Shown piece after piece: positions 1,090 through 10,160 of a stretch of DNA of 10,160 nt; the stretch's first letter is position 1, and the number at the start of each line of letters is the position of its first letter. A program made the position numbers and the translations under genes. The stretch spans positions 1 through 10,160 of the forward strand of contig DHXA01000006.1 of assembly GCA_002413455.1 (NCBI GenBank), in the 5' to 3' direction. The notes under the pieces are model-generated. The model had not been told where the DNA came from. It made no database searches and saw nothing but the letters and a program-made list of their open reading frames with translations. Source of the stretch: Rhodanobacter sp. UBA5168 (lineage in GTDB: Bacteria; Pseudomonadota; Gammaproteobacteria; Xanthomonadales; Rhodanobacteraceae).

Positions 1090-2391
1090 CTAATGAGCGC
1101 CTTTCTGCGTTTCGCGCAGTGCCGCCACTGCTGCCGCTGCGTTGACCTGGAACCTTCCGTGGGAGACTTTGCTGCTGCGTAGCAGGAGATCATGGACCGT
1201 GCGTGCATCCAGTCGGGGCGAGAGAGCCAGCAACAGGGCAACGATGCCGCTGACATGCGGAGCAGCCATGGATGATCCGGACGTGAAGTCATATCCGCCA
1301 CCGGGCTGGGTGGTCAGGATGTCGTTTCCGGGAGCGCTGACCACGCCGGGCGATGCTGCCGATGTGCCGCTGACGCGCACCACGATGACTCCAGGCGCAT
1401 CGGCCGGGAATCCGTCGACGTTGCCATCGGGTGGCATGGCGGCGACCACGATGCGGCCGTCTTCCAGTATGCGGACGAGCAGCTTGTCCAGTAGCGGATC
1501 GGCGGGGCCGCCCAGGCTCAGATTGATGATGCGGGCATCCGTATCGATGATCGCCGCCAGCGCCTTGGCGAGCGTAAAGGAATTGCAGCGTGCGCCGGCA
1601 TGAGACGCGGCCGGATACCAGCATGCCTTGTAGATGCTGAGCATGGCCTTGGGCGCCATTCCCACGATGCCGCGATGATTGTCGCCATCGGCGGCGATCA
1701 CGCCCGCCACTTCCGTGCCATGGCCATCGCGGTTGAACGCCGCCGCATCGTCATCGACCATGTTGTGCATGTCGTGGATACGCCCCTGAAGATCGGGATG
1801 CGTCGTGTCGACGCCCGTATCGACGACCGCAACATGAACCCCACTGCCTTCGCTGAAGTCATGTGCGAGGGCGGCATCGGTTTCGACGAAGCCGCGTTGG
1901 AGGCTGGCGTAGGGATCGTTGTCCTGGCGCGGCTGCGGCGGTTCGGTTGTGTAAACGGCGTAGTCGTGCAGCGGCTGTGCAAGCTGCACCCGGTCGTCCT
2001 TGGCGAGCGCCTTGATCAAGGCGTCCCGGGCCATGCCCGGCGGCGTCTTCACCACCACGCAGTACACGTCGAGGGCCTTGATCGGCCAGCCGGTGATCTC
2101 GCGCAAACCGTAATGTCGCTTCAGCGCAGCCAGGGTGGCAGCTGCGCGCTGTCCGGCGCCGTAATGCTTCGGCGGGGCATAACCCAGCAGGCTGGAGCCC
2201 GCGTGCGTGGCGGGGGGATCGATCGGATTGGCGACAGCCAGCACGATGTCGCGCTGACTGTCCATGGCGGACGCGTTGACGACCGGCGCATGGCCGGGAC
2301 TGGCGTGATCATCCTGCGGCGCCTTGGGACGCATAGAGGCGCACGCGCTCAAAGCCATGACGGCTGCGAGAAGGATGAGGCCGTGTTTCAT
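1090..2391 (-). CDS. Lipoprotein subtilisin-like serine protease (peptidase family S8)
   Basis: A 433-residue envelope subtilase. The ATG at 2391 is chosen because it overlaps the anti-sigma stop as ATGA and begins a lipoprotein signal peptide with lipobox LSAC (Cys17). Residue +2 is Ala, which in general favours sorting to the outer membrane. Residues about 47-146 look like an I9-type inhibitory prodomain ending in QLAQPL (136-141). The catalytic domain follows with Asp191 (VVDTG), His224 (GHGTE) and Ser374 (SGSSMAAPH). The oxyanion-hole Asn is probably Asn324, but the usual AAAGN segment reads AAMPPDGN, as if three residues were inserted. As the last gene of a sigma/anti-sigma operon it is probably co-expressed with its regulators and may act on the anti-sigma factor or on damaged envelope proteins. 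The protease family is secure; the signalling role is inference. Confidence 0.92.
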   Translation of the reverse strand: MKHGLILLAAVMALSACASMRPKAPQDDHASPGHAPVVNASAMDSQRDIVLAVANPIDPPATHAGSSLLGYAPPKHYGAGQRAAATLAALKRHYGLREITGWPIKALDVYCVVVKTPPGMARDALIKALAKDDRVQLAQPLHDYAVYTTEPPQPRQDNDPYASLQRGFVETDAALAHDFSEGSGVHVAVVDTGVDTTHPDLQGRIHDMHNMVDDDAAAFNRDGHGTEVAGVIAADGDNHRGIVGMAPKAMLSIYKACWYPAASHAGARCNSFTLAKALAAIIDTDARIINLSLGGPADPLLDKLLVRILEDGRIVVAAMPPDGNVDGFPADAPGVIVVRVSGTSAASPGVVSAPGNDILTTQPGGGYDFTSGSSMAAPHVSGIVALLLALSPRLDARTVHDLLLRSSKVSHGRFQVNAAAAVAALRETQKGAH

Positions 2392-3023
2392 GGCGCGCTG
2401 ATGACGGGCTCCGCCAGGCGGATGCCCCGTGTCGCGCGCAACTGCTGCAAGGTGGTCCGCGGTGCTGAAGCGGAATCCGTTGGCGCGACGGTGTAGGCAC
2501 CCACATCGTTGGGGCCACCCACCACCTTCAAGCGAAGGGCATGCAGCAAGGCATTCCAATCGGCCAATGTCATGGCCGTGTCAGGCACGACACGGATCGC
2601 GCCCGGCGCCGCCGGCGGAGCCTCCTGGCTGAGCGTGCGATACAGCGGGCTTCCGTCCGCCGACCACAACTTCATGCCCAGGGCACCGATACCGAGCGCC
2701 TGGAGCAGCACCACGGCGACCAGTGCCCGGTTCAACCAGTTTCCCGAGCGCGAGCGCAGGCGCACCTCCTGGGGCTCCGGCGTATCGAGACGGGCGAGCA
2801 GGCGGCCCAATCCGATGTTCGCGTCGACCGGAATGTCCGAAGGCAGCGACATGGCCAGCCGCAGGCGACTTTGCTGGTCATACTCCCTGCGGCAGGCCTC
2901 GCATTGCGCCAGATGACCTTCCAGCCATTCGCCTTGCTCGTGCGTGGCGCTGCCCTGCAACACCCACGGCATCGCCTCCCAGGCGCGGACGCAGTCCCGC
3001 TCGGAATTCGACGGGAACGTCAT
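2388..3023 (-). CDS. Membrane anti-sigma factor with zinc-binding ZAS motif
   Basis: A 211-residue single-pass protein. Residues 1-60 hold the anti-sigma zinc-finger helix motif H-x3-C-x2-C (His37, Cys41, Cys44), which binds and holds the cognate ECF sigma factor in the cytoplasm. One membrane helix lies at about 97-118, flanked by Arg/Trp before and Lys/Trp after, giving a periplasmic C-terminal part of about 90 residues. That part has a strand-helix-strand-strand-helix-strand pattern: IRVVPD (143-148), a helix at 152-163, VVGGP (167-171), AYTV (176-179), a helix at about 190-197 and RLAEPV (202-207). This resembles an I9-type protease prodomain. The ATG at 3023 overlaps the sigma stop as ATGA, and the gene ends in another ATGA overlap with the subtilase. 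A longer reading frame upstream to 3131 lies inside the sigma gene and was not used. Confidence 0.9.
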   Translation of the reverse strand: MTFPSNSERDCVRAWEAMPWVLQGSATHEQGEWLEGHLAQCEACRREYDQQSRLRLAMSLPSDIPVDANIGLGRLLARLDTPEPQEVRLRSRSGNWLNRALVAVVLLQALGIGALGMKLWSADGSPLYRTLSQEAPPAAPGAIRVVPDTAMTLADWNALLHALRLKVVGGPNDVGAYTVAPTDSASAPRTTLQQLRATRGIRLAEPVISAP

Positions 3024-3644: not shown

Positions 3645-3674
3645 TAAGTACCGGATCAGCGCAAGAAGGTTGCC
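3645..3674 (-). promoter_or_regulatory. Predicted ECF promoter A, upstream of the sigma gene
   Basis: Minus-strand GGCAACCTT (3666-3674), 12 bases, then CGGTACTTA (3645-3653). AACC-type -35 boxes are typical of ECF sigma factors, and AACCTT to TACTTA leaves a 15-base spacer. The same pattern with the same spacing precedes two other transcription units here (7184-7213 and 7286-7315). It starts 8 bases after the beta-barrel gene ends and predicts a transcript start near 3639, a leader of about 36 bases. Autoregulation of ECF operons is common. Assignment to this sigma factor is inference. Confidence 0.7.
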
Positions 3675-3681
3675 TCTGCAT

Positions 3682-4518
3682 TCAAAAGGAGCGCGAAATC
3701 GTGGCGACCCAGGGGGAGGCGCCCAGATAGTACCGTTGTCGGCGTGTTTCCGGATCGGCCATGATGCGATCGAGCTCGATCCGCCAGGGTCCCTGGGTCC
3801 ATAGTAATCCCACATGGCCGTAGTTGCTCAGGCCAGCGCGGTCGGGGCGGTAAGACCTGGCCTGATCGTAACGATAAGGCCGGTAGGACGCGGCCAGGGA
3901 CTGGGCGACGCCGGCCCCGGCGGAAAGGGAGAGATGCTCCGCCAATGGCCAATGGAGACTGAGGTCGGCGGCACCACGGGGCCGGTGGCCCTCCGCACCC
4001 AGGACGTAGATGGCCGAGACGCCCAGGGTCAGCACGTCCCGATAGGTCCAGTTGAGCCCGGTTTCGGCGCGATCGGAGGTCCCTCCACGGTTGCCGCTGG
4101 AATACCGGTAATAGAGCAGGCTCGCCTGCATCTGCCAGTCATTGGACAGCGTCCAATGGCGGGACCCCTGGACGAGGGCTTCGGCCAGCCGGCCGGGCGA
4201 GCGCACGGCAGCACCTCCGGACAGGCCCAGCGACCAGCCCGCCGGAAACGTCCAGGACGCCGCCCCCTGCACGATGGGCGTATTGCCGGTGATCGCCTGA
4301 CCCCGGTCAACCAGCTGCGAGCTGAGTGCCACGGTGCCATTGAAGGTGGTCGATTGGGCATCCAGTGCCGGGGAAAGGCCGATGCCAACGGCCAATAAGG
4401 TGAAACCAAAGCCCTTGCGAATAATGGATTCGCCCCGGGTCGCGCCATCGGGGTGGCGGGAATCAACGGGACGATCGCGCAAACACATCGCCGCGCGCGG
4501 GAAGCGATAGTCCGTCAT
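3682..4518 (-). CDS. Outer-membrane beta-barrel protein, resembling the TorF/TIGR02001 putative porins
   Basis: 278 residues. After a hydrophobic segment (about 36-50) and a likely cleavage near ALDAQ (51-55), the chain is a run of amphipathic strands rich in aromatics and Gly/Ser. It opens with a segment like the family's first strand (SSQLVDRGQAITGNTPIVQG, 66-85) and ends in Phe, as outer-membrane proteins do. The 35 residues before the hydrophobic core are long and not signal-like, so the start is uncertain: ATG at 4518 and at 4488 both fit, and neither has a clear ribosome binding site. No in-frame ATG lies closer to the hydrophobic core. It is the last gene of the cytochrome group, 95 bases after cytochrome c. 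Family assignment is by eye, and no substrate can be named. Confidence 0.75.
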   Translation of the reverse strand: MTDYRFPRAAMCLRDRPVDSRHPDGATRGESIIRKGFGFTLLAVGIGLSPALDAQSTTFNGTVALSSQLVDRGQAITGNTPIVQGAASWTFPAGWSLGLSGGAAVRSPGRLAEALVQGSRHWTLSNDWQMQASLLYYRYSSGNRGGTSDRAETGLNWTYRDVLTLGVSAIYVLGAEGHRPRGAADLSLHWPLAEHLSLSAGAGVAQSLAASYRPYRYDQARSYRPDRAGLSNYGHVGLLWTQGPWRIELDRIMADPETRRQRYYLGASPWVATISRSF

Positions 4519-4613
4519 GAGCCAATCATCGGTTCATTACTTGAACGATCCATGCTGACGCGGCCAGTGCCCATGCCACTCCCGATCGATTCGGCGCAGG
4601 CCAAGGAAGATCA

Positions 4614-5003
4614 TCAGTGCAGCGTGCCAAGGTACGAAATGAGATCGTCCAGATCCTTGGCGTCGGTAAGGCCATCGTATTTCATTTTGGTGCCTGGATT
4701 GGCTTGATTTGCCGGTTGCGACAAATAACTGCGCAGCTTTTCCGGCGTCCAGACCCAGTCGCTTCGTCCGCGCAGGGCATCCGAATACTGGTAATCCGGC
4801 AATGTGGCCGCCTTGCGCCCCACGATGCCAAAAAGGCTGGGGCCCTTTTTATTGCGCCCCTCCCGGTTGCTGTGACACTCGGCGCATTCCGACTTGAAGA
4901 CATCCGACCCTGCAGCGGCGTCGGTGGCATGGGCAGGAAGAGCAGCCAGCGCCCAGCCCAGGACAAGTGCTGCGGCGGACAGACCCAACGGTAATTTCGT
5001 CAT
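4614..5003 (-). CDS. Soluble class I cytochrome c
   Basis: A 129-residue periplasmic monoheme electron carrier of the mitochondrial/c2 type. The signal peptide ends at about residue 26 (PAHA/TDAA). The heme site is Cys40-x-x-Cys43-His44 and the sixth ligand is Met107 in the PGTKMKYDG loop. FGIVGRKAA (58-66), YSDA, WTPEKL (85-90) and DLISYL (120-125) match the family layout. The ATG at 5003 sits two bases after the stop of the heme-porin gene, so the two are surely co-transcribed; a longer frame to 5129 lacks a signal peptide at its start and overlaps the porin gene. Its likely job is to carry electrons between the outer-membrane heme-porin and inner-membrane partners such as the b561 cytochrome. 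Identity is firm; direction of electron flow is unknown. Confidence 0.93.
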   Translation of the reverse strand: MTKLPLGLSAAALVLGWALAALPAHATDAAAGSDVFKSECAECHSNREGRNKKGPSLFGIVGRKAATLPDYQYSDALRGRSDWVWTPEKLRSYLSQPANQANPGTKMKYDGLTDAKDLDDLISYLGTLH

Positions 5004-5005
5004 TT

Positions 5006-6379
5006 TTAGAACGCCAGGCTCGCTGAAACCAGAAATGCATTGAGGTCGGCCGGCCGGGTTGTCGAAACGCCCGGCGCAGCGCCGAAGATGTTGTTCGTCG
5101 CGCCGTTGAACCGGGTGAAGCGGAACCACGTGGCGGCGATCTTCAGATTTGCCATGGCAGTGACCGAGTCATCCTTGCCGAACGGCGCCCAGAACACGCT
5201 GAGGAGATTGGCGGTGGTGTCGGGGTTGCCGTACGGGCCGAAGCGGACCGCATCGCGTGTGCCGTTGCTCTCCAGGTGCGCAAGCTGCAGGCCATAGCTC
5301 TGCCTGAAGGTGTAGGTGACGCTCAGGGTTTCATCGTGCAGCGCGCCGCGCGGCAGGGCGGTGAAGCCCGGAGTGCCAGGGTCCGGCGGTGTGCTGCCGT
5401 ACCGGCGCTTTTCGAGGATATTCACATAGCTGAGCTGCACGATGTTTTCCCGGTTACCGAGAAACTGGTAAGTCAGGTCGTAGCCCAAGTCAGTGAGTTT
5501 GTCCGCCGGTCCACTGCGCTGAAGCTGGCGCCTGGTCGTCAGTCCCACCACGCCCACCGAGAAGAACTGGCGCTTGAGATCCTTCATGTACGCGAAGCGG
5601 AAATAGCCGGTGTCGCTGAGTGTGCCCGGGTCGCCCGAGATGGAATAACCGAGGCGCTCCTGCGTGGAAGTCGGCAGCGAGTTGTAGGTGCCCACTTCGC
5701 CATACCAGTCCGAGTCATACAGGCCGTAGACAGTGGCGCCAATGACACGGTAGGCGGGTGCGTTGGCGCTGGACTGTTTGAGGAAGGTGCCAGTGGGTCC
5801 TTGGCCCCCGGGTGGCCCGAGGTTTGTCGCGGCGGGCAGCACGGCGATCGGATCATCGAAGCTCGGACTGTTGTTGACGCTTACGCCCAGCGTCAGGTCC
5901 TTGCCGCCGAGCTTGAGTTCCCTGGCGACAAAGCGCAGATCGACATTGCGGAGTTTGGTGTTGTAGGTGTTGTGTCCGACATGATCGGCCTCGACCTTGA
6001 CGTAACCGCCGACCTGATCGGTCAGGCGGCCGGCCAGGTAGAGGTCGGCCTCGGTGAGGTTCATGGTGCTCTCGCCACGGGCCGGTGCGGTATGCGTTTC
6101 GATCAGCTGGGCGGCCAGTGGAATCTTGCCGCCGTTGCCGTCCGTATCGGTGTAGCCGTTCAACTTGAAGCGCATCCCGTAGGGCGTCAGGTTCGGTCCG
6201 TTGCCGCCGCCGCCGTACGCACCGGCGTGACAGTCGGCACAGGCGGATCCGGTTTGTCGGGCATACACCGGAATGGCGTGAGCGGCGGTGCTGGCGAACA
6301 GCAGCAGCGCCGCAAGGCTGCAGTACAGCGTCACGATTCCGGAACGGAGATTCGCCCATCGGTGCGGAAAAGACGACAT
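5006..6379 (-). CDS. Cyc2-like outer-membrane cytochrome c-porin fusion
   Basis: 457 residues. A signal peptide (cleavage at about 35, TAAHA/IP) leads directly into PVYARQTGSACADCH, with one heme site at Cys47-Ala-Asp-Cys50-His51, followed by NLTPYGMRFKLNGYTD (63-78). This arrangement, a PxFARQTGxxCxxCH motif with LTPxGxxFKLxGYT shortly after, is the hallmark I know from Cyc2, the fused monoheme-porin of iron-oxidising bacteria. The remaining 360 residues are alternating amphipathic strands with loops, ending in Phe457, consistent with a porin-like barrel. Cyc2 proteins are about 400-500 residues, so the length fits. A loop of Gly-rich residues (GGGGNGP, 56-62) separates CH from the LTP motif. 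The start is set by a strong ribosome binding site. Neighbours are b561 upstream (52 bases) and cytochrome c downstream (2 bases). Many Cyc2 relatives are not proven iron oxidases; the electron donor or acceptor is unknown. Confidence 0.88.
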   Translation of the reverse strand: MSSFPHRWANLRSGIVTLYCSLAALLLFASTAAHAIPVYARQTGSACADCHAGAYGGGGNGPNLTPYGMRFKLNGYTDTDGNGGKIPLAAQLIETHTAPARGESTMNLTEADLYLAGRLTDQVGGYVKVEADHVGHNTYNTKLRNVDLRFVARELKLGGKDLTLGVSVNNSPSFDDPIAVLPAATNLGPPGGQGPTGTFLKQSSANAPAYRVIGATVYGLYDSDWYGEVGTYNSLPTSTQERLGYSISGDPGTLSDTGYFRFAYMKDLKRQFFSVGVVGLTTRRQLQRSGPADKLTDLGYDLTYQFLGNRENIVQLSYVNILEKRRYGSTPPDPGTPGFTALPRGALHDETLSVTYTFRQSYGLQLAHLESNGTRDAVRFGPYGNPDTTANLLSVFWAPFGKDDSVTAMANLKIAATWFRFTRFNGATNNIFGAAPGVSTTRPADLNAFLVSASLAF

Positions 6380-6383
6380 GAAG

Positions 6384-6390
6384 TCTCCTT
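6384..6390 (-). promoter_or_regulatory. Strong ribosome binding site of the heme-porin gene
   Basis: Minus-strand AAGGAGA, four bases before the ATG at 6379. It is the clearest Shine-Dalgarno in the window and fixes the start of the heme-porin gene. It suggests that this gene is translated more strongly than its neighbours. Confidence 0.85.
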
Positions 6391-6431
6391 GTTGGGACAG
6401 GTGCGGCAGTGAAGTAAGGGCCGTGCGCAGG

Positions 6432-7016
6432 TCAGCGACGGCGTCGCGGCAACATCGTCCGCAGCACGCCGTCGCGCCGGACGAAGTGATGCCAGAGCGC
6501 TGCCGCGATGTGCAGCAAAATCAGTCCGAGCAATAGCCAGGCGGCATCCTGGTGCCACAACTGCAGGGCATCGGCGAGATCCTCGTCGGCGCCCACCAGC
6601 GCAGGCAGGGTCGCACCCAGCAGATGCACCGGCTTGCCTTGCGCATCACTGAGCGCCCAGCCGAGCAGCGGCTGCGCGAGCAGCAACGCGTACAGGGCGA
6701 CGTGGGTCAGTATCGCCAGCAGTCGAATGAAGCGCGACGAATCGTTGTCGGCCGGCAGCCTGCCCAGTCGCACGCGCAGGGCCACGCGAGCGAAGAAAAG
6801 CACGAGCACGAGCAACCCGACATAGCGATGTCCCTCGAGCAACCACAGGCGCAGCGCTCGCCCGGCGACCTGGTCGCGGGTCAGGATCAACGCCGCCGCC
6901 AGCACCAGGCAAAGCGCGGTGAGCCAATGCAGGATCGTCAACTTCCTGGAGCGTGGTGGCGCTGCTTTTTCACCCGACCGATCTGGCGGGCGACGCAAAT
7001 CGCCGAGGTGAGACAT
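6432..7016 (-). CDS. Cytochrome b561 (CybB-like di-heme membrane protein)
   Basis: 194 residues with four membrane helices at about 27-46, 62-82, 97-120 and 156-178. Candidate heme ligands are His30 (LTILHW), His63 (LEGHRYVG), His155 (LWHQDAAW) and His169 (LLHIAAALWHH), with the usual family ending of HHFVRRDGVLRTMLP. CybB-type b561 proteins exchange electrons between quinol and other carriers in the inner membrane. Here the partner is probably the cytochrome c/heme-porin pair downstream. ATG 7016 gives a normal N-terminus; extending to 7067 or 7130 adds Arg-rich residues with poor codon use and was rejected. No clear Shine-Dalgarno precedes 7016. It is the first established gene after promoter B, about 160 bases from the predicted transcript start. 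Confidence 0.88.
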   Translation of the reverse strand: MSHLGDLRRPPDRSGEKAAPPRSRKLTILHWLTALCLVLAAALILTRDQVAGRALRLWLLEGHRYVGLLVLVLFFARVALRVRLGRLPADNDSSRFIRLLAILTHVALYALLLAQPLLGWALSDAQGKPVHLLGATLPALVGADEDLADALQLWHQDAAWLLLGLILLHIAAALWHHFVRRDGVLRTMLPRRRR

Positions 7017-7117
7017 GAGCACGACATTGCCGCCACGATCTGGCGGAGTTTTGTTTCCCAATCCCATACCTGGTGATGCCTCTGCGCGTTGTCGTCGTCG
7101 AACCGATACCCGCGCAT
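6938..7117 (-). CDS. Possible small protein in the leader of the b561 operon
   Basis: A 59-codon frame from ATG 7117, beginning MRGYRFDDDNAQRHHQ and continuing with VWDWETKLRQIVAAM, then a Cys-rich stretch SCSCLTSAIC and a basic tail. The first half shows GC-rich third positions that fit real coding better than the alternative frames here, and GTGGGA lies just before the ATG. The second half overlaps the start of the b561 gene in another frame, which is unusual. It could be a leader peptide, a small protein, or chance. No family is recognised. Confidence 0.25.
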   Translation of the reverse strand: MRGYRFDDDNAQRHHQVWDWETKLRQIVAAMSCSCLTSAICVARQIGRVKKQRHHAPGS

Positions 7118-7183
7118 GTCCCACGGCCAACCCGGCCGCCGAAAGAGAGACTCATGTGCAGCCCGAGAGTGACTTGGTACGCA

Positions 7184-7213
7184 TGAGTGCCGATTGCGCA
7201 ATGAAAGGTTGCC
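7184..7213 (-). promoter_or_regulatory. Predicted ECF promoter B, upstream of the cytochrome operon
   Basis: Minus-strand GGCAACCTT (7205-7213), 12 bases, then CGGCACTCA (7184-7192). It matches promoter A in the boxes and in spacing. The 12-base spacer contains the perfect palindrome ATTGCGCAAT (7193-7202). The predicted transcript starts near 7178 and reads into the b561, heme-porin, cytochrome c and beta-barrel genes after a leader of about 160 bases, longer than at promoters A and C. Confidence 0.65.
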
Positions 7214-7285
7214 TTCACCCGGATCACTCTCCTGCTTCGGCCAGCCAAGGTCGTCATCCAGCGCAAGCCCGCCGCATTGCAACGA

Positions 7286-7315
7286 CGCAACCTTTCGCCG
7301 GGCGCACGGCACTCA
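7286..7315 (+). promoter_or_regulatory. Predicted ECF promoter C, upstream of the sugar operon
   Basis: Plus-strand CGCAACCTT (7286-7294), 12 bases, then CGGCACTCA (7307-7315). It shares the boxes and spacing of promoters A and B. The predicted transcript start near 7321 leaves a leader of about 41 bases before the ATG at 7362, close to the geometry of promoter A. Confidence 0.68.
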
Positions 7316-7361: not shown

Positions 7362-7799
7362 ATGGAAATCGAGCGAATCCAGTTGCAGAAGCATGGCGAT
7401 AGCCGCGGCATGCTCATCGCCTTGGAGCAGGATAGAAACGTGCCCTTCGAGATCCGGCGCGTGTACTACCTGTTCGCCACGAAGAGCGATGTGCATCGAG
7501 GCCGCCACGCACACCGCCAGCTCAATCAGCTGGCGGTGACGGTGCGCGGCTCCGTCACTTTTCTGCTGGACGACGGCAGCGGTCCGGTGGCGGTCGTGCT
7601 CAACGATCCTTCGCAGGGATTGTTGCTCGGCCGCATGGTATGGCGCGAGCTGTACGACTTCAGCGAGGACTGCGTGCTGATGGTGCTGGCCGACCAGTTG
7701 TACGACCAGAACGACTACATCACCGACTACGCCGACTTCCTGCGTGAGGTCAACGGGACCCTGTACCCGCAGGACATGGCAGCATGTCTAGGCCGCTAG
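7362..7799 (+). CDS. FdtA/QdtA-type dTDP-4-keto-6-deoxyglucose 3,4-ketoisomerase (WxcM-like cupin)
   Basis: 145 residues, the usual size of these single-domain cupins. They move the keto group of dTDP-4-oxo-6-deoxyglucose from C4 to C3, the step before a 3-amino-3,6-dideoxyhexose is made. Family marks are HRGRHAH (45-51), holding the conserved active-site histidines, then QLNQLAVTVRGSVTF, and the C-terminal WRELYDFSEDCVLMVLADQ and YDQNDYITDYADFL segments. ATG 7362 gives the standard N-terminus (MEIERIQLQKHGDSRG); the frame is open upstream to 7194 but that part carries promoter C. The product FdtA (galacto) or QdtA (gluco) cannot be told apart here. The 3-aminotransferase normally required is not in the window and may lie downstream. 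Confidence 0.92.
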   Translation: MEIERIQLQKHGDSRGMLIALEQDRNVPFEIRRVYYLFATKSDVHRGRHAHRQLNQLAVTVRGSVTFLLDDGSGPVAVVLNDPSQGLLLGRMVWRELYDFSEDCVLMVLADQLYDQNDYITDYADFLREVNGTLYPQDMAACLGR

Positions 7800-8449
7800 T
7801 CCTTGTCGGAGCGGGCGAATTCGCGCAGATTGCCTGCGAATACTTCGAACACGACAGCGACCGTGACGTGGTCGCTTTCAGCGTCGAGCGCGACTATCTC
7901 GTGCAGCCGGTGCTGGCCGACCGCCCCGTGGTGGCCTACGAGACACTGGAGACGCACTATCCGCCGGCGGATGTCGATGTCTTCGTCGCGATCCCGGCCA
8001 GCCAGCTCAACCGCGTGCGCACGCGCTTGTACCAGGACGCCAAGCGCAAGGGTTACCGGTTCGCCACGTACGTCAGTACGCGCGCCTTCGTGTGGCGCAA
8101 TGCCGAGGTGGGCGAGAACAGCTTCATCTTCGAGGGCAATGTCATCCAGCCTTTCGTGCGCATCGGCAACAACTGCATTCTCTGGAGCGGCAATCACGTA
8201 GGTCATCGCACGGTCGTGCACGACAACGTGTTCGTCGCCTCGCACGCGGTCATTTCGGGCTACTGCGAGATCGGCGAGAGCAGCTTCATCGGCGTGAACT
8301 CCACCTTCAACGACCACGTGAAGATCGCGCCGGACAACGTGATCGGCGCCGGGGCGCTGGTGACGCGCGACACCGAGCCGGGGCGGATCTACGTCGGCTC
8401 TCCGGCCCGCGCGGTGCCCGGCAAATCCAGCCTCGACGTGAGGCTTTGA
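7784..8449 (+). CDS. PglD/NeuD-type sugar acyltransferase (left-handed beta-helix)
   Basis: 221 residues. The N-terminal part (1-75) is a small Rossmann-like domain with VLVGAGEFAQIACEYF (5-20), as in PglD. From about 95 a hexapeptide-repeat beta-helix follows (EVGENSFIFEGNVIQPFVRIG and later coils). His141 in NHVGHRTVVHDN is at the position of the catalytic His of the family, and it ends with VGSPARAVPG (204-213). These enzymes transfer acetyl (or other acyl) groups from CoA to an amino or hydroxyl group of a nucleotide sugar. It overlaps the ketoisomerase by 16 bases, so acylation of the 3-amino sugar made by that pathway is a fair inference. FdtC/QdtC enzymes lack the PglD-type N-terminal domain, so this is not a simple orthologue. 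Confidence 0.9.
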   Translation: MSRPLVLVGAGEFAQIACEYFEHDSDRDVVAFSVERDYLVQPVLADRPVVAYETLETHYPPADVDVFVAIPASQLNRVRTRLYQDAKRKGYRFATYVSTRAFVWRNAEVGENSFIFEGNVIQPFVRIGNNCILWSGNHVGHRTVVHDNVFVASHAVISGYCEIGESSFIGVNSTFNDHVKIAPDNVIGAGALVTRDTEPGRIYVGSPARAVPGKSSLDVRL

Positions 8450-8456
8450 AGAACGC

Positions 8457-9410
8457 ATGTTGGAATGGACCAAGAAGGGATTGGTGTTCGAGACCGTGCG
8501 CCATGGCGTGGGCGACTGGATGCTTCACTCGGCACTGACGCCAACGCCCTGGCGCATCGACGACGACACCATCCGCGTCTATGCGGGTTTTCGCGATGCC
8601 GAAGGCGTCAGCCGGATCGGCTACGTCGACGTGCGGGCCGACGATCCGACGTCCATCGTGCGCGTCAGCGCCGAGCCGGCGCTCGACATCGGCCGGGACG
8701 GCTGCTTCGACGACAACGGCGTGATCCTCGGCGATGTCGTCGAAGCGCCGGGTGGCCTGCACCTGTTCTACGTCGGCTTTCAGCACGTGGCCAAGGCCAA
8801 GTTCCTGGCCTTCACCGGCCTCGCCGTTTCGACCGATGGTGGCGAACATTTCCGACGCGTGCAGGAAACACCGATCCTGGATCGCGCGCCTGGCCGCAGC
8901 ACCATCGGCGCGGTGCATTCGGTCATCCACGAAAACGGTCGCTGGCGCATCTGGTATGCCGTTGGCGACGACTGGGAAACCATCGGCGGCCAACCGTTTC
9001 CGCGCTATCACATTCGCTATGCGGAGACGGCCGATCTGGGTGCGATACCGCGCGAAGACCATGTTTGCCTGCTGCCGCGCGGCAGCGAGTATCGGATCGG
9101 CCGGCCGCGCGTGTACCGGGTCGGCGGCAGGTACGTCATGTACTTCACGCGCGGCAATCGCGGCAGGGAATACTTTCCCGGCGTGGCGTACAGCGACGAC
9201 GGCATCCGCTGGGAGCGCCGCGACGAGGCGCTGGGGATGACGCTGTCCGCCGACGGCTGGGATTCGCTGGTCATCTGCTATCCCGCGCTGATCCGCCAGC
9301 GCGACAAGCTGCTGATGTTCTACAACGGCAACGACATGGGGCTGGATGGATTCGGCGTGGCCGAGGCCGACTGCGATCGCTTCGACGGTGATGCGGATGT
9401 TCACGGTTAG
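8457..9410 (+). CDS. Five-bladed beta-propeller protein, glycosidase-like (GH43/GH130-type fold)
   Basis: 317 residues, no signal peptide, so cytoplasmic. It has repeated propeller-blade patterns: IRVYAGFRDAEGVSRIGYVDV (39-59, blade 1), LHLFYVGFQH (101-110), RWRIWYAVGDDW (162-173), RYVMYFTRGNRG (225-236) and LLMFYNGNDMGLDGFGVA (285-302). Acidic residues at DDNG (85-88) and the Asp/Glu within the blades could be catalytic, but I cannot assign them with confidence. Such proteins occur in surface-polysaccharide clusters, where their role is poorly known; possibilities are a glycosidase, a phosphorylase or a non-catalytic sugar-binding protein. It starts 7 bases after the acyltransferase stop and overlaps the next gene, so it is part of the operon. 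Confidence 0.8.
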   Translation: MLEWTKKGLVFETVRHGVGDWMLHSALTPTPWRIDDDTIRVYAGFRDAEGVSRIGYVDVRADDPTSIVRVSAEPALDIGRDGCFDDNGVILGDVVEAPGGLHLFYVGFQHVAKAKFLAFTGLAVSTDGGEHFRRVQETPILDRAPGRSTIGAVHSVIHENGRWRIWYAVGDDWETIGGQPFPRYHIRYAETADLGAIPREDHVCLLPRGSEYRIGRPRVYRVGGRYVMYFTRGNRGREYFPGVAYSDDGIRWERRDEALGMTLSADGWDSLVICYPALIRQRDKLLMFYNGNDMGLDGFGVAEADCDRFDGDADVHG

Positions 9411-10160
9411 GCCCTATGCCCAGGCCGATGCGGCCGCCTGGGATGCAATGGTCGAGCGTTCCCGCAACGGCAACCTGCTGCACCGGCGCGGCTATATGGA
9501 CTACCACGCCGACCGCTTCGTCGACCGGTCGCTGGTGATCGAGCGCAACGGCGAAGCGGTGGCGGTTTTCCCCGCGAATATCCGGGACCGCACGGTGACA
9601 AGCCACGCCGGCCTTACCTATGCCGGCCTCATAGCGGGCGACGCCCTGCGCGCCGAATCGACGCTGGCGGTGTTCGAACAGATCGGCGACCACTATCGCG
9701 CGCTTGGCGTGGAACGCGTCGTCTACAAGGCGGTGCCGCATGTCTTTCACGCCTATCCCGCGGAAGAGGATCTGTACGCGCTGCATCGGCTGGGAGCTCA
9801 ATTGAAGCGCCGCGATCTTTCTTCGGTGATTCCGCTGCAGGAAGCATTTCACTTCACGCCGGGGCGCCGGCACGCCATCGACAAGGCGAAGAAGGCCGGC
9901 ATCCGCGTGCAGGCTGGCGCCGGCCTGGAAGATTTTCACGTCCTGCTTTGCGATGTGCTGCGCAAGCACGACGCCGTGCCCACCCACAGCCTGGCGGAGT
10001 TGCGTCTGCTGCAGGCCCGGTTTCCGCAGCACATCGTGCTGCATGAGGCGCGTATCGGGGAGGTCTTGCTGGCGGGCGTCCTCATCTACGATTTCGGTCG
10101 GGTCGTGCATACGCAATACATGGCGGTCTCCGAACAGGGGCGGCGTCTGGACGCGCTCAG
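9391..10160 (+). CDS. GNAT/FemAB-like acyltransferase, cut by the right edge
   Basis: An open frame of 256 codons from ATG 9391 (a second ATG at 9397 is equally possible) to the edge without a stop. It begins MRMFTVRPYAQADAAAWDAM and has LLHRRGYMDYHADRF (29-43 when counted from 9391), a pattern seen in GNAT-superfamily proteins of the FemAB type. A second acyltransferase-like half appears at about 135-256, with ARIGEVLLAGVLIYD and a VVHTQYMAVSEQG segment that would be the acyl-CoA-binding region. It overlaps the propeller gene by 20 bases, so it is translationally coupled. It could add an amino acid or acyl group to a sugar of the surface polysaccharide. The missing C-terminus prevents a firm assignment. 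Confidence 0.8.
   Translation, partial: MRMFTVRPYAQADAAAWDAMVERSRNGNLLHRRGYMDYHADRFVDRSLVIERNGEAVAVFPANIRDRTVTSHAGLTYAGLIAGDALRAESTLAVFEQIGDHYRALGVERVVYKAVPHVFHAYPAEEDLYALHRLGAQLKRRDLSSVIPLQEAFHFTPGRRHAIDKAKKAGIRVQAGAGLEDFHVLLCDVLRKHDAVPTHSLAELRLLQARFPQHIVLHEARIGEVLLAGVLIYDFGRVVHTQYMAVSEQGRRLDAL

Follow-up and report, generated by a model that had tools for sequence, protein, structure and literature searches.

A predicted sigma factor regulon that would join an outer-membrane electron conduit to a surface-polysaccharide locus in Rhodanobacter and its relatives

Sigma factors of the extracytoplasmic function (ECF) type that activate their own operon together with local targets are a known kind of regulator. 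In systems of the RpoE/RseA and SigW/RsiW type, a sigma factor made of sigma2 and sigma4 domains is encoded next to a class I zinc-finger membrane anti-sigma factor with an H...C..C finger and a hydrophobic helix, and a conserved site with AAC in its -35 box precedes the sigma gene. A locus of this kind was found in a stretch of 10,160 nucleotides (nt) from Rhodanobacter sp. UBA5168 (GenBank assembly GCA_002413455.1, contig DHXA01000006.1, forward strand), hereafter the window, which is the entire contig C165 of a 3.76-Mb draft genome (275 contigs, 85% complete). Three copies of one motif lie before its sigma gene, a cytochrome operon and a sugar operon (Table 1), and the explanation that probably accounts best for the whole is that they are promoters of this sigma factor, through which it would drive its own gene, an outer-membrane electron conduit and polysaccharide genes. 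The box words, GCAACCTT and GGYACYYA, are unlike familiar ECF promoter words. The locus also departs from the RpoE/RseA and SigW/RsiW type in that the periplasmic domain of the anti-sigma factor appears prodomain-like and the operon encodes a subtilase. In the parts accessible, PMC8999054 mentions subtilases only for sigma groups without an anti-sigma factor, and nothing on subtilases was found in the corresponding parts of PMC7406223.

The neighbouring genes likewise have described counterparts. Like the Cyc2 of iron oxidisers, the window's fused cytochrome-porin has one CXXCH with PXL downstream and 16 predicted strands, and a form of the Cyc2 signature, A-x-P-x-[F/Y]-A-R-Q-T, stands upstream of its CXXCH; unlike that protein, it shares its cluster with cytochrome b561, sigma-factor and polysaccharide genes, and belongs to a set in which Tyr often replaces Phe. 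In some relatives its place is taken by a decaheme DmsE/MtrA family protein and an MtrB/PioB porin, as in MtrAB/PioAB conduits, from which this set differs in that its third gene encodes a diheme cytochrome c and that it shares its motif with the Cyc2 of other species. The gene calls in this place returned MtrA, MtrB and the diheme gene only, MtrC not having been searched for separately. The polysaccharide genes joined by the motif set (FdtA, DegT aminotransferase, flippase, glycosyltransferases GT2 and GT4, Wzz and sulfotransferase) resemble Wzx/Wzz-type loci and differ from them in that the ECF motif recurs at either end and an electron conduit lies alongside; no polymerase family was matched in a family search of the proteins of this locus. 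Little appears to be understood of how Cyc2- and MtrAB-type conduits are regulated, and those of soil and plant-associated Xanthomonadales are not known to have an assigned purpose. Cyc2 is already known in these bacteria, homologues being reported for Rhodanobacteraceae and a Rhodanobacter sp. in the accessible parts of PMC10654088 and PMC5566968, and its promoter and partners are what is newly added here. Dyella, Rhodanobacter and Xanthomonas or Xanthomonad are not named in two surveys of Mtr and porin-cytochrome systems (PMC8805035, PMC4245776), and no description of this regulon was found among the matches listed in the literature searches, which covered few subscription journals or preprints.

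The pattern GCAACCTT-N12-CGGYACTYA matched the window exactly three times, and allowing up to three mismatches added no further match. These are the copies of the original prediction, which had drawn each of them one base too long at its 5' end. A chance expectation of 0.0001 had been attached to them; the arithmetic was slightly off for a pattern of 15 fixed bases plus two Y, and the figure is only indicative, as the pattern was defined after the fact. Dinucleotide shuffles contained 0.06 matches on average and 0 of 200 reached three. Each copy faces a transcription unit, as had been proposed, upstream of the start codons of the sigma, b561 and fdtA genes. The 30-base flanks of the three copies agree at 5-8 of 30 positions and their spacers at 2-5 of 12. 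A matrix built from sites that precede sigma orthologues in other records (77 distinct sites, one source, L054, being a near relative) recovered only the three window sites at ≥6 bits; this test is partly dependent, the 77 sites having been chosen as the best match to the window pattern within 400 bases of the sigma gene. Applied to 1.54 Mb of reversed sequence, the matrix gave 6, 3, 2 and 0 matches at ≥8, 10, 12 and 14 bits. It displays two conserved boxes and between them a stretch that is mostly unconserved apart from its T-rich start.

Conservation was assessed in named genomes scanned with the sigma protein, from which the best 80 of 94 candidates encoding a relative were retained (L numbers denote loci or regions, G numbers genomes and C numbers contigs of the window's own genome). 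Within 400 bases upstream of the sigma gene, the best match to the strict motif had 0-4 mismatches in 80 of 80 loci, and a site with up to two mismatches of a relaxed pattern was present there in 77. Over the 1,540,005 bases of the 80 loci, the relaxed pattern gave 212 matches at this threshold and the reversed pattern 2. Scattering within genes was not observed: 77 matches stood before sigma, 62 before fdtA and 59 facing the slot, defined as the region between the slot-facing site and sigma (198 in all), and among the 14 elsewhere some are plausible promoters, such as the pair in L124 oriented towards a gene for MtrA and one for a methyltransferase. When the loci having fdtA were scanned with the matrix, 62 of 65 had an fdtA-facing and 59 of 65 a slot-facing site. 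The distance from site to start codon was 31 nt (median) for sigma and 33-47 nt for fdtA (62 loci). In Rhodanobacter, Dyella, Luteibacter and Xanthomonas the motif is kept before the orthologous genes, and four Burkholderiales share it in front of sigma; in some Burkholderiales it is kept there with sigma, anti-sigma and protease, fdtA and the conduit being absent from the locus.

The motif also tracks the sigma gene. Of 40 genomes from the genus, 22 encode the sigma factor at E ≤ 1e-40 and 18 do not, 12 of the latter being ≥90% complete. All 22 congeners with the sigma gene had relaxed sites without mismatch, against none of the 18 lacking it. With up to one mismatch, the 40 congeners gave 99 matches (control: 29), and the sigma-negative ones showed no excess, with five one-mismatch matches in four genomes against 13 in the control; a looser pattern, run at up to one mismatch over 16 of the genomes that supplied named loci, gave 80 matches (control: 26). 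In the four Xanthomonas and two Rhodanobacter genomes among them, every match without mismatch lay within the locus or 17-24 kb along it, and the far site precedes HprK-like and ATP-binding cassette (ABC) genes in both genomes inspected (L174, Xanthomonas phaseoli; L180, R. panaciterrae). Perfect off-locus sites in Dyella G181 and G184 precede a gene starting MHTGEQYH (methyltransferase) followed by a flavin-reductase-like gene, and another in G181 stands before an AhpC-like gene; counterparts of these genes, with orthology judged by eye from the N-termini, lie inside the cluster in Rhodanobacter G126, G161 (first two genes) and G188. Further off-locus sites are either unexplained or noise: two in G191, one ahead of a TonB receptor gene in G167, one ahead of an acyltransferase-like gene in G183 and, with one mismatch, some within genes of G149 and G146. 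On sequence evidence, the places of the promoters, their conservation before orthologues and their tracking of the sigma gene support the local regulon of three units that had been predicted.

The putative regulon exceeds what the original prediction saw, extending to contig C176. Five of the 22 matches found in the own genome at up to three mismatches had 0-2 mismatches, and of these three lie in the window and two on C176; a further site on C176 with three mismatches (2488-2516 +) recurs before the same radical S-adenosylmethionine (SAM) gene in G161, G126 and G039, with two mismatches of the relaxed pattern. This contig encodes an ABC transporter, an HprK-like kinase, a B12 radical-SAM protein, a methyltransferase, a sulfotransferase, glycosyltransferases and a protein that corresponds to an NTP_transf_5 nucleotidyltransferase of G161. 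In G161, the closest relative searched (sigma 95% identical), genes of the C176 type come after the fdtA operon on one contig, with motif copies spanning 334,498 to 361,344 (27 kb between the outermost). C165 and C176 probably belong to a single locus. Genes for the HprK-like kinase, nucleotidyltransferase, radical-SAM proteins, sulfotransferase and ABC transporter are brought together on C176 (L023:1309-7593).

The Cyc2-like naming of the fused protein held up on heme motif, PXL and strand number, and on the signature in a form with Tyr for Phe. In its accessible part, PMC8406198 gives AXPXFAR[Q/K][T/Y], CXXCH, PXL and a 16-stranded porin as the marks of Cyc2; Xanthomonas sequences were thinned from its Cyc2 set. 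The window protein has an N-terminus that appears hydrophobic by eye; AIPVYARQT stands before its one CXXCH and PNL after it. A single N-terminal CXXCH is present in 29 of 29 aligned Cyc2-like rows and is separated from the AXPX motif by three residues in all of them; the signature is strict in 9 rows and has Tyr for Phe in 20, window included. PXL follows CXXCH in all 29 at a distance of 5 or 10 residues, 10 being the value for the window protein and 4 the one given by PMC8406198. The AlphaFold2 model of the window protein has 16 strands, with a mean predicted local distance difference test score (pLDDT) of 68.9, a predicted template modelling score (pTM) of 0.70 and low values in the heme region; porins were its best structure matches (E down to 4.4e-10), among them OprO (rank 40) and OprP (rank 48).

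Slot contents were typed in loci reaching at most 10 kb to each side; outside them a genome may hold a second MtrAB, as the window's own does. A Cyc2-like gene was present in 50 of 80 loci, usually together with cytochrome b561 and cytochrome c and in L075 alone. Another 17 loci carried decaheme MtrA, an MtrB/PioB porin and a diheme cytochrome c, placed upstream of sigma in 12 (two of them inverted) and downstream of the protease in 5. In L057, MtrA matched TIGR03508 (258.5 bits, cut-off 192.2) and PDB 6r2q_A, which we take to be MtrA (E 4.7e-62), and the porin matched PF11854 (248.5 bits, cut-off 23) and, under the cut-off of 240, TIGR03509 (183 bits). Seven loci had fdtA and neither conduit, six were left unassigned, and Cyc2 and MtrAB occurred together in 0 of 80. 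A sigma tree, quickly built and weak in several of its branches, requires at least 7 changes between the two conduits, or at least 11 when conduit-free loci are counted. This alternation points to one role for both. Electron movement across the outer membrane is what the families of both occupants are known for, so their exchange in one place argues that such movement is the selected function; that two unrelated conduits replace each other behind a single promoter set is a natural indication that they share one task.

The sigma protein consists of sigma2 and sigma4 domains only, has a size of about 190 amino acids (aa) and has an anti-sigma factor as operon mate, which places it among the ECF (group IV) factors; its best NCBIfam match is PRK12515 (132 bits, under the cut-off of 236). 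In the anti-sigma factor, whose membrane helix was read by eye, H37, C41 and C44 are invariant in 31 sequences. Its C-terminal third, the periplasmic domain, is similar in profile to the N-terminal third of the subtilase, and its predicted fold seems to resemble that of prodomains, the reference being the beta-alpha-beta-beta-alpha-beta fold of S8 prodomains. This likeness suggests prodomain mimicry and a protease-controlled release of sigma. The subtilase has a lipoprotein-type signal by eye, which is missing from some orthologues. A TorF-like porin gene stands beside sigma in 78 of 80 loci (exceptions L069 and L133), including three Burkholderiales (L129-L131), hinting that the porin may be part of the sensing module.

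In the proposed mechanism, the membrane anti-sigma factor encoded next door would hold sigma until an extracytoplasmic signal, probably sensed via the prodomain-like periplasmic domain and the subtilase, frees it. Freed sigma would transcribe its own operon in positive feedback, the outer-membrane conduit operon (cytochrome b561, Cyc2-like cytochrome-porin, cytochrome c) and the surface-polysaccharide locus, whose far end would lie on C176. That this particular sigma factor reads the motif is likely, the protease step is conjectural, and the purpose may be to coordinate an exopolysaccharide matrix with extracellular electron exchange, for example with Fe(II) or minerals. In this soil bacterium and related species, one self-activating switch appears to turn on an electron wire and a sugar coat together, and the type of wire swaps between species while the switch stays. 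A bolder generalisation, which we hold tentatively and at somewhat below even weight, is that porin, ECF sigma, prodomain-mimicking anti-sigma and subtilase form a conserved cassette with the conduits as interchangeable cartridges, Cyc2 or MtrAB being placed beside the same promoter and polysaccharide locus; electron transfer and matrix would be one programme, and sigma release would be set by competition between the anti-sigma domain and the protease prodomain. The dedicated sigma factor offers a handle: once it is switched on, the occasions and reasons for electron exchange with the outside should show, as should whether the polysaccharide takes part in it. A prodomain-like anti-sigma factor beside a subtilase is a testable route for sigma release.

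The window holds just three copies, which on their own might reflect chance or a recent promoter duplication in one genome; this is extremely improbable, given the shuffles, the unrelated flanks and the conservation in tens of species, and chance was ruled out by shuffles and matrix scan and duplication by the unrelated flanks and spacers. A 15-base conserved site could also be the operator of another DNA-binding activator or repressor, with the sigma gene merely one of its targets, and some sites do stand before unrelated genes. Such an operator is improbable when set against two conserved boxes with a mostly unconserved stretch between them, promoter-like distances to the start codons, perfect sites confined to congeners having the sigma gene, and the Burkholderiales that keep the site before sigma in a locus without fdtA or conduit. 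More weight, although still less than we would give to an even match, is due to a regulon for envelope or polysaccharide stress in which the genes for electron transfer ride along, feeding or protecting redox chemistry in the periplasm, and do not serve extracellular exchange. The sugar operon and sigma core persist conduit-free in 7 of 80 loci, the cluster holds AhpC-like and flavin-reductase-like genes, and Xanthomonas is, to our knowledge, not known as an iron oxidiser; this stress regulon remains rather unlikely, as the locus has repeatedly been filled by two unrelated families that share electron movement across the outer membrane.

Several observations count against a sigma-driven regulon that includes the conduit. 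Co-occurrence inside one genus partly reflects shared ancestry, and the loci are not independent, 28 of 80 being from Xanthomonas. All motif searches covered the 12-base spacing only. In the own genome, the 22 matches at up to three mismatches compare with 28 for a backward-read control; because there was no excess, the three-mismatch class was treated as noise and a genome-wide excess at that level was rejected. Perfect sites also stand about 146 nt before a TonB-receptor-like gene in Rhodanobacter G167 (L177:3405-3433 (-)) and, at two off-locus places in G191, before or in unrelated-looking genes. Four of the seven conduit-free loci have no slot-facing site but retain those of the sigma and sugar genes, which makes the conduit dispensable to the module. 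No site of ≥9 bits was found before MtrAB in the five loci where it lies downstream of the protease, none at the operon's own 5' end in Dyella L069 and L076, where inverted MtrAB lies -0.7 to -6.1 kb from sigma, and none for the slot-type MtrAB of Dyella jiangningensis, about 34 kb from sigma. For Xanthomonas campestris, the accessible part of PMC6085468 reports that a strain lacking nine group IV sigma factors other than RpoE1 kept its virulence; the orthologue among those genes, if any, could not be mapped from that part, and no link to these deletions was made.

Table 1. Features of the window and, in the last row, of related loci (positions in nt; bit scores from family searches or, for motif copies, from the site matrix)
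Feature	Position	Strand	Evidence and remarks
S8 subtilase	1090..2391	(-)	Peptidase_S8 125.6 bits; D192, H225, S375 invariant in 26 sequences
Anti-sigma factor: zinc-finger N-terminus, one hydrophobic helix, subtilisin-prodomain-like C-terminus	2388..3023	(-)	zf-HC2 20.7 bits, under cut-off 22.2
ECF sigma factor, sigma2 + sigma4, 194 aa	3020..3604	(-)	Pfam Sigma70_r2 39 bits, Sigma70_r4_2 46 bits; NCBIfam TIGR02937
ECF-type promoter motif copy 1	3645..3673	(-)	Before sigma gene (putative autoregulation); exact match, 41.3 bits, 40 nt from ATG
TorF-like (Gcw_chp) putative outer-membrane porin adjoining sigma	3682..4518	(-)	TIGR02001 E 2.3e-8, 33.9 bits, under cut-off 47.15
Monoheme cytochrome c	4614..5003	(-)	Cytochrom_C 35.6 bits
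Cyc2-like fused cytochrome-porin	5006..6379	(-)	One CXXCH, 16 predicted strands
Cytochrome b561-type membrane protein	6432..7016	(-)	Ni_hydr_CYTB 93.2 bits
Promoter motif copy 2	7184..7212	(-)	Before cytochrome b561 / Cyc2-like / cytochrome c operon; exact match, 24.2 bits, 167 nt before cytochrome b561 start
Promoter motif copy 3	7287..7315	(+)	Before fdtA sugar operon; exact match, 29.1 bits, 46 nt before ATG
FdtA/WxcM-like sugar ketoisomerase-type protein	7362..7799	(+)	FdtA 157.6 bits
Hexapeptide-repeat acyltransferase-type protein	7784..8449	(+)	Hexapep 66.2 bits
Glycosidase/phosphorylase-like protein, weak GH130/GH32 similarity	8457..9410	(+)	NF052550 E 7.3e-9, 35.4 bits, cut-off 450; Glyco_hydro_32N under cut-off
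Conserved sugar-operon protein, runs off contig	9397..10158	(+)	No Pfam match; orthologues at equivalent place in relatives
MtrA-MtrB-diheme conduit in place of the Cyc2 operon, same promoters	L057:4436-8933; also L058, L061, L065, L068, L088		

Conduits outside the locus were also considered. A tie of conduits in general to the sigma factor was rejected, as Cyc2-like homologues of 28-39% identity and off-locus MtrB occur in sigma-positive and sigma-negative congeners. No site of ≥8 bits was found in 12 of 12 regions around off-locus Rhodanobacter MtrB homologues, including the copy on the own contig C245, where a motif-free MtrAB-diheme set has an MtrB about 50% identical to the slot type (L183; G000:C245:46000-54000). 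Control of off-locus MtrAB by the motif was not adopted and is kept as a lead, a site being seen in Frateuria terrea alone: this species has a conduit-free locus and a marginal site (L182:3768-3796 (+), 9.5 bits) roughly 200 nt ahead of an off-locus MtrA gene. Cyc2 of the close slot type (≥66% identity) alone accompanies the locus: it was present in 11 of 44 genomes, and all 11 have the sigma gene.

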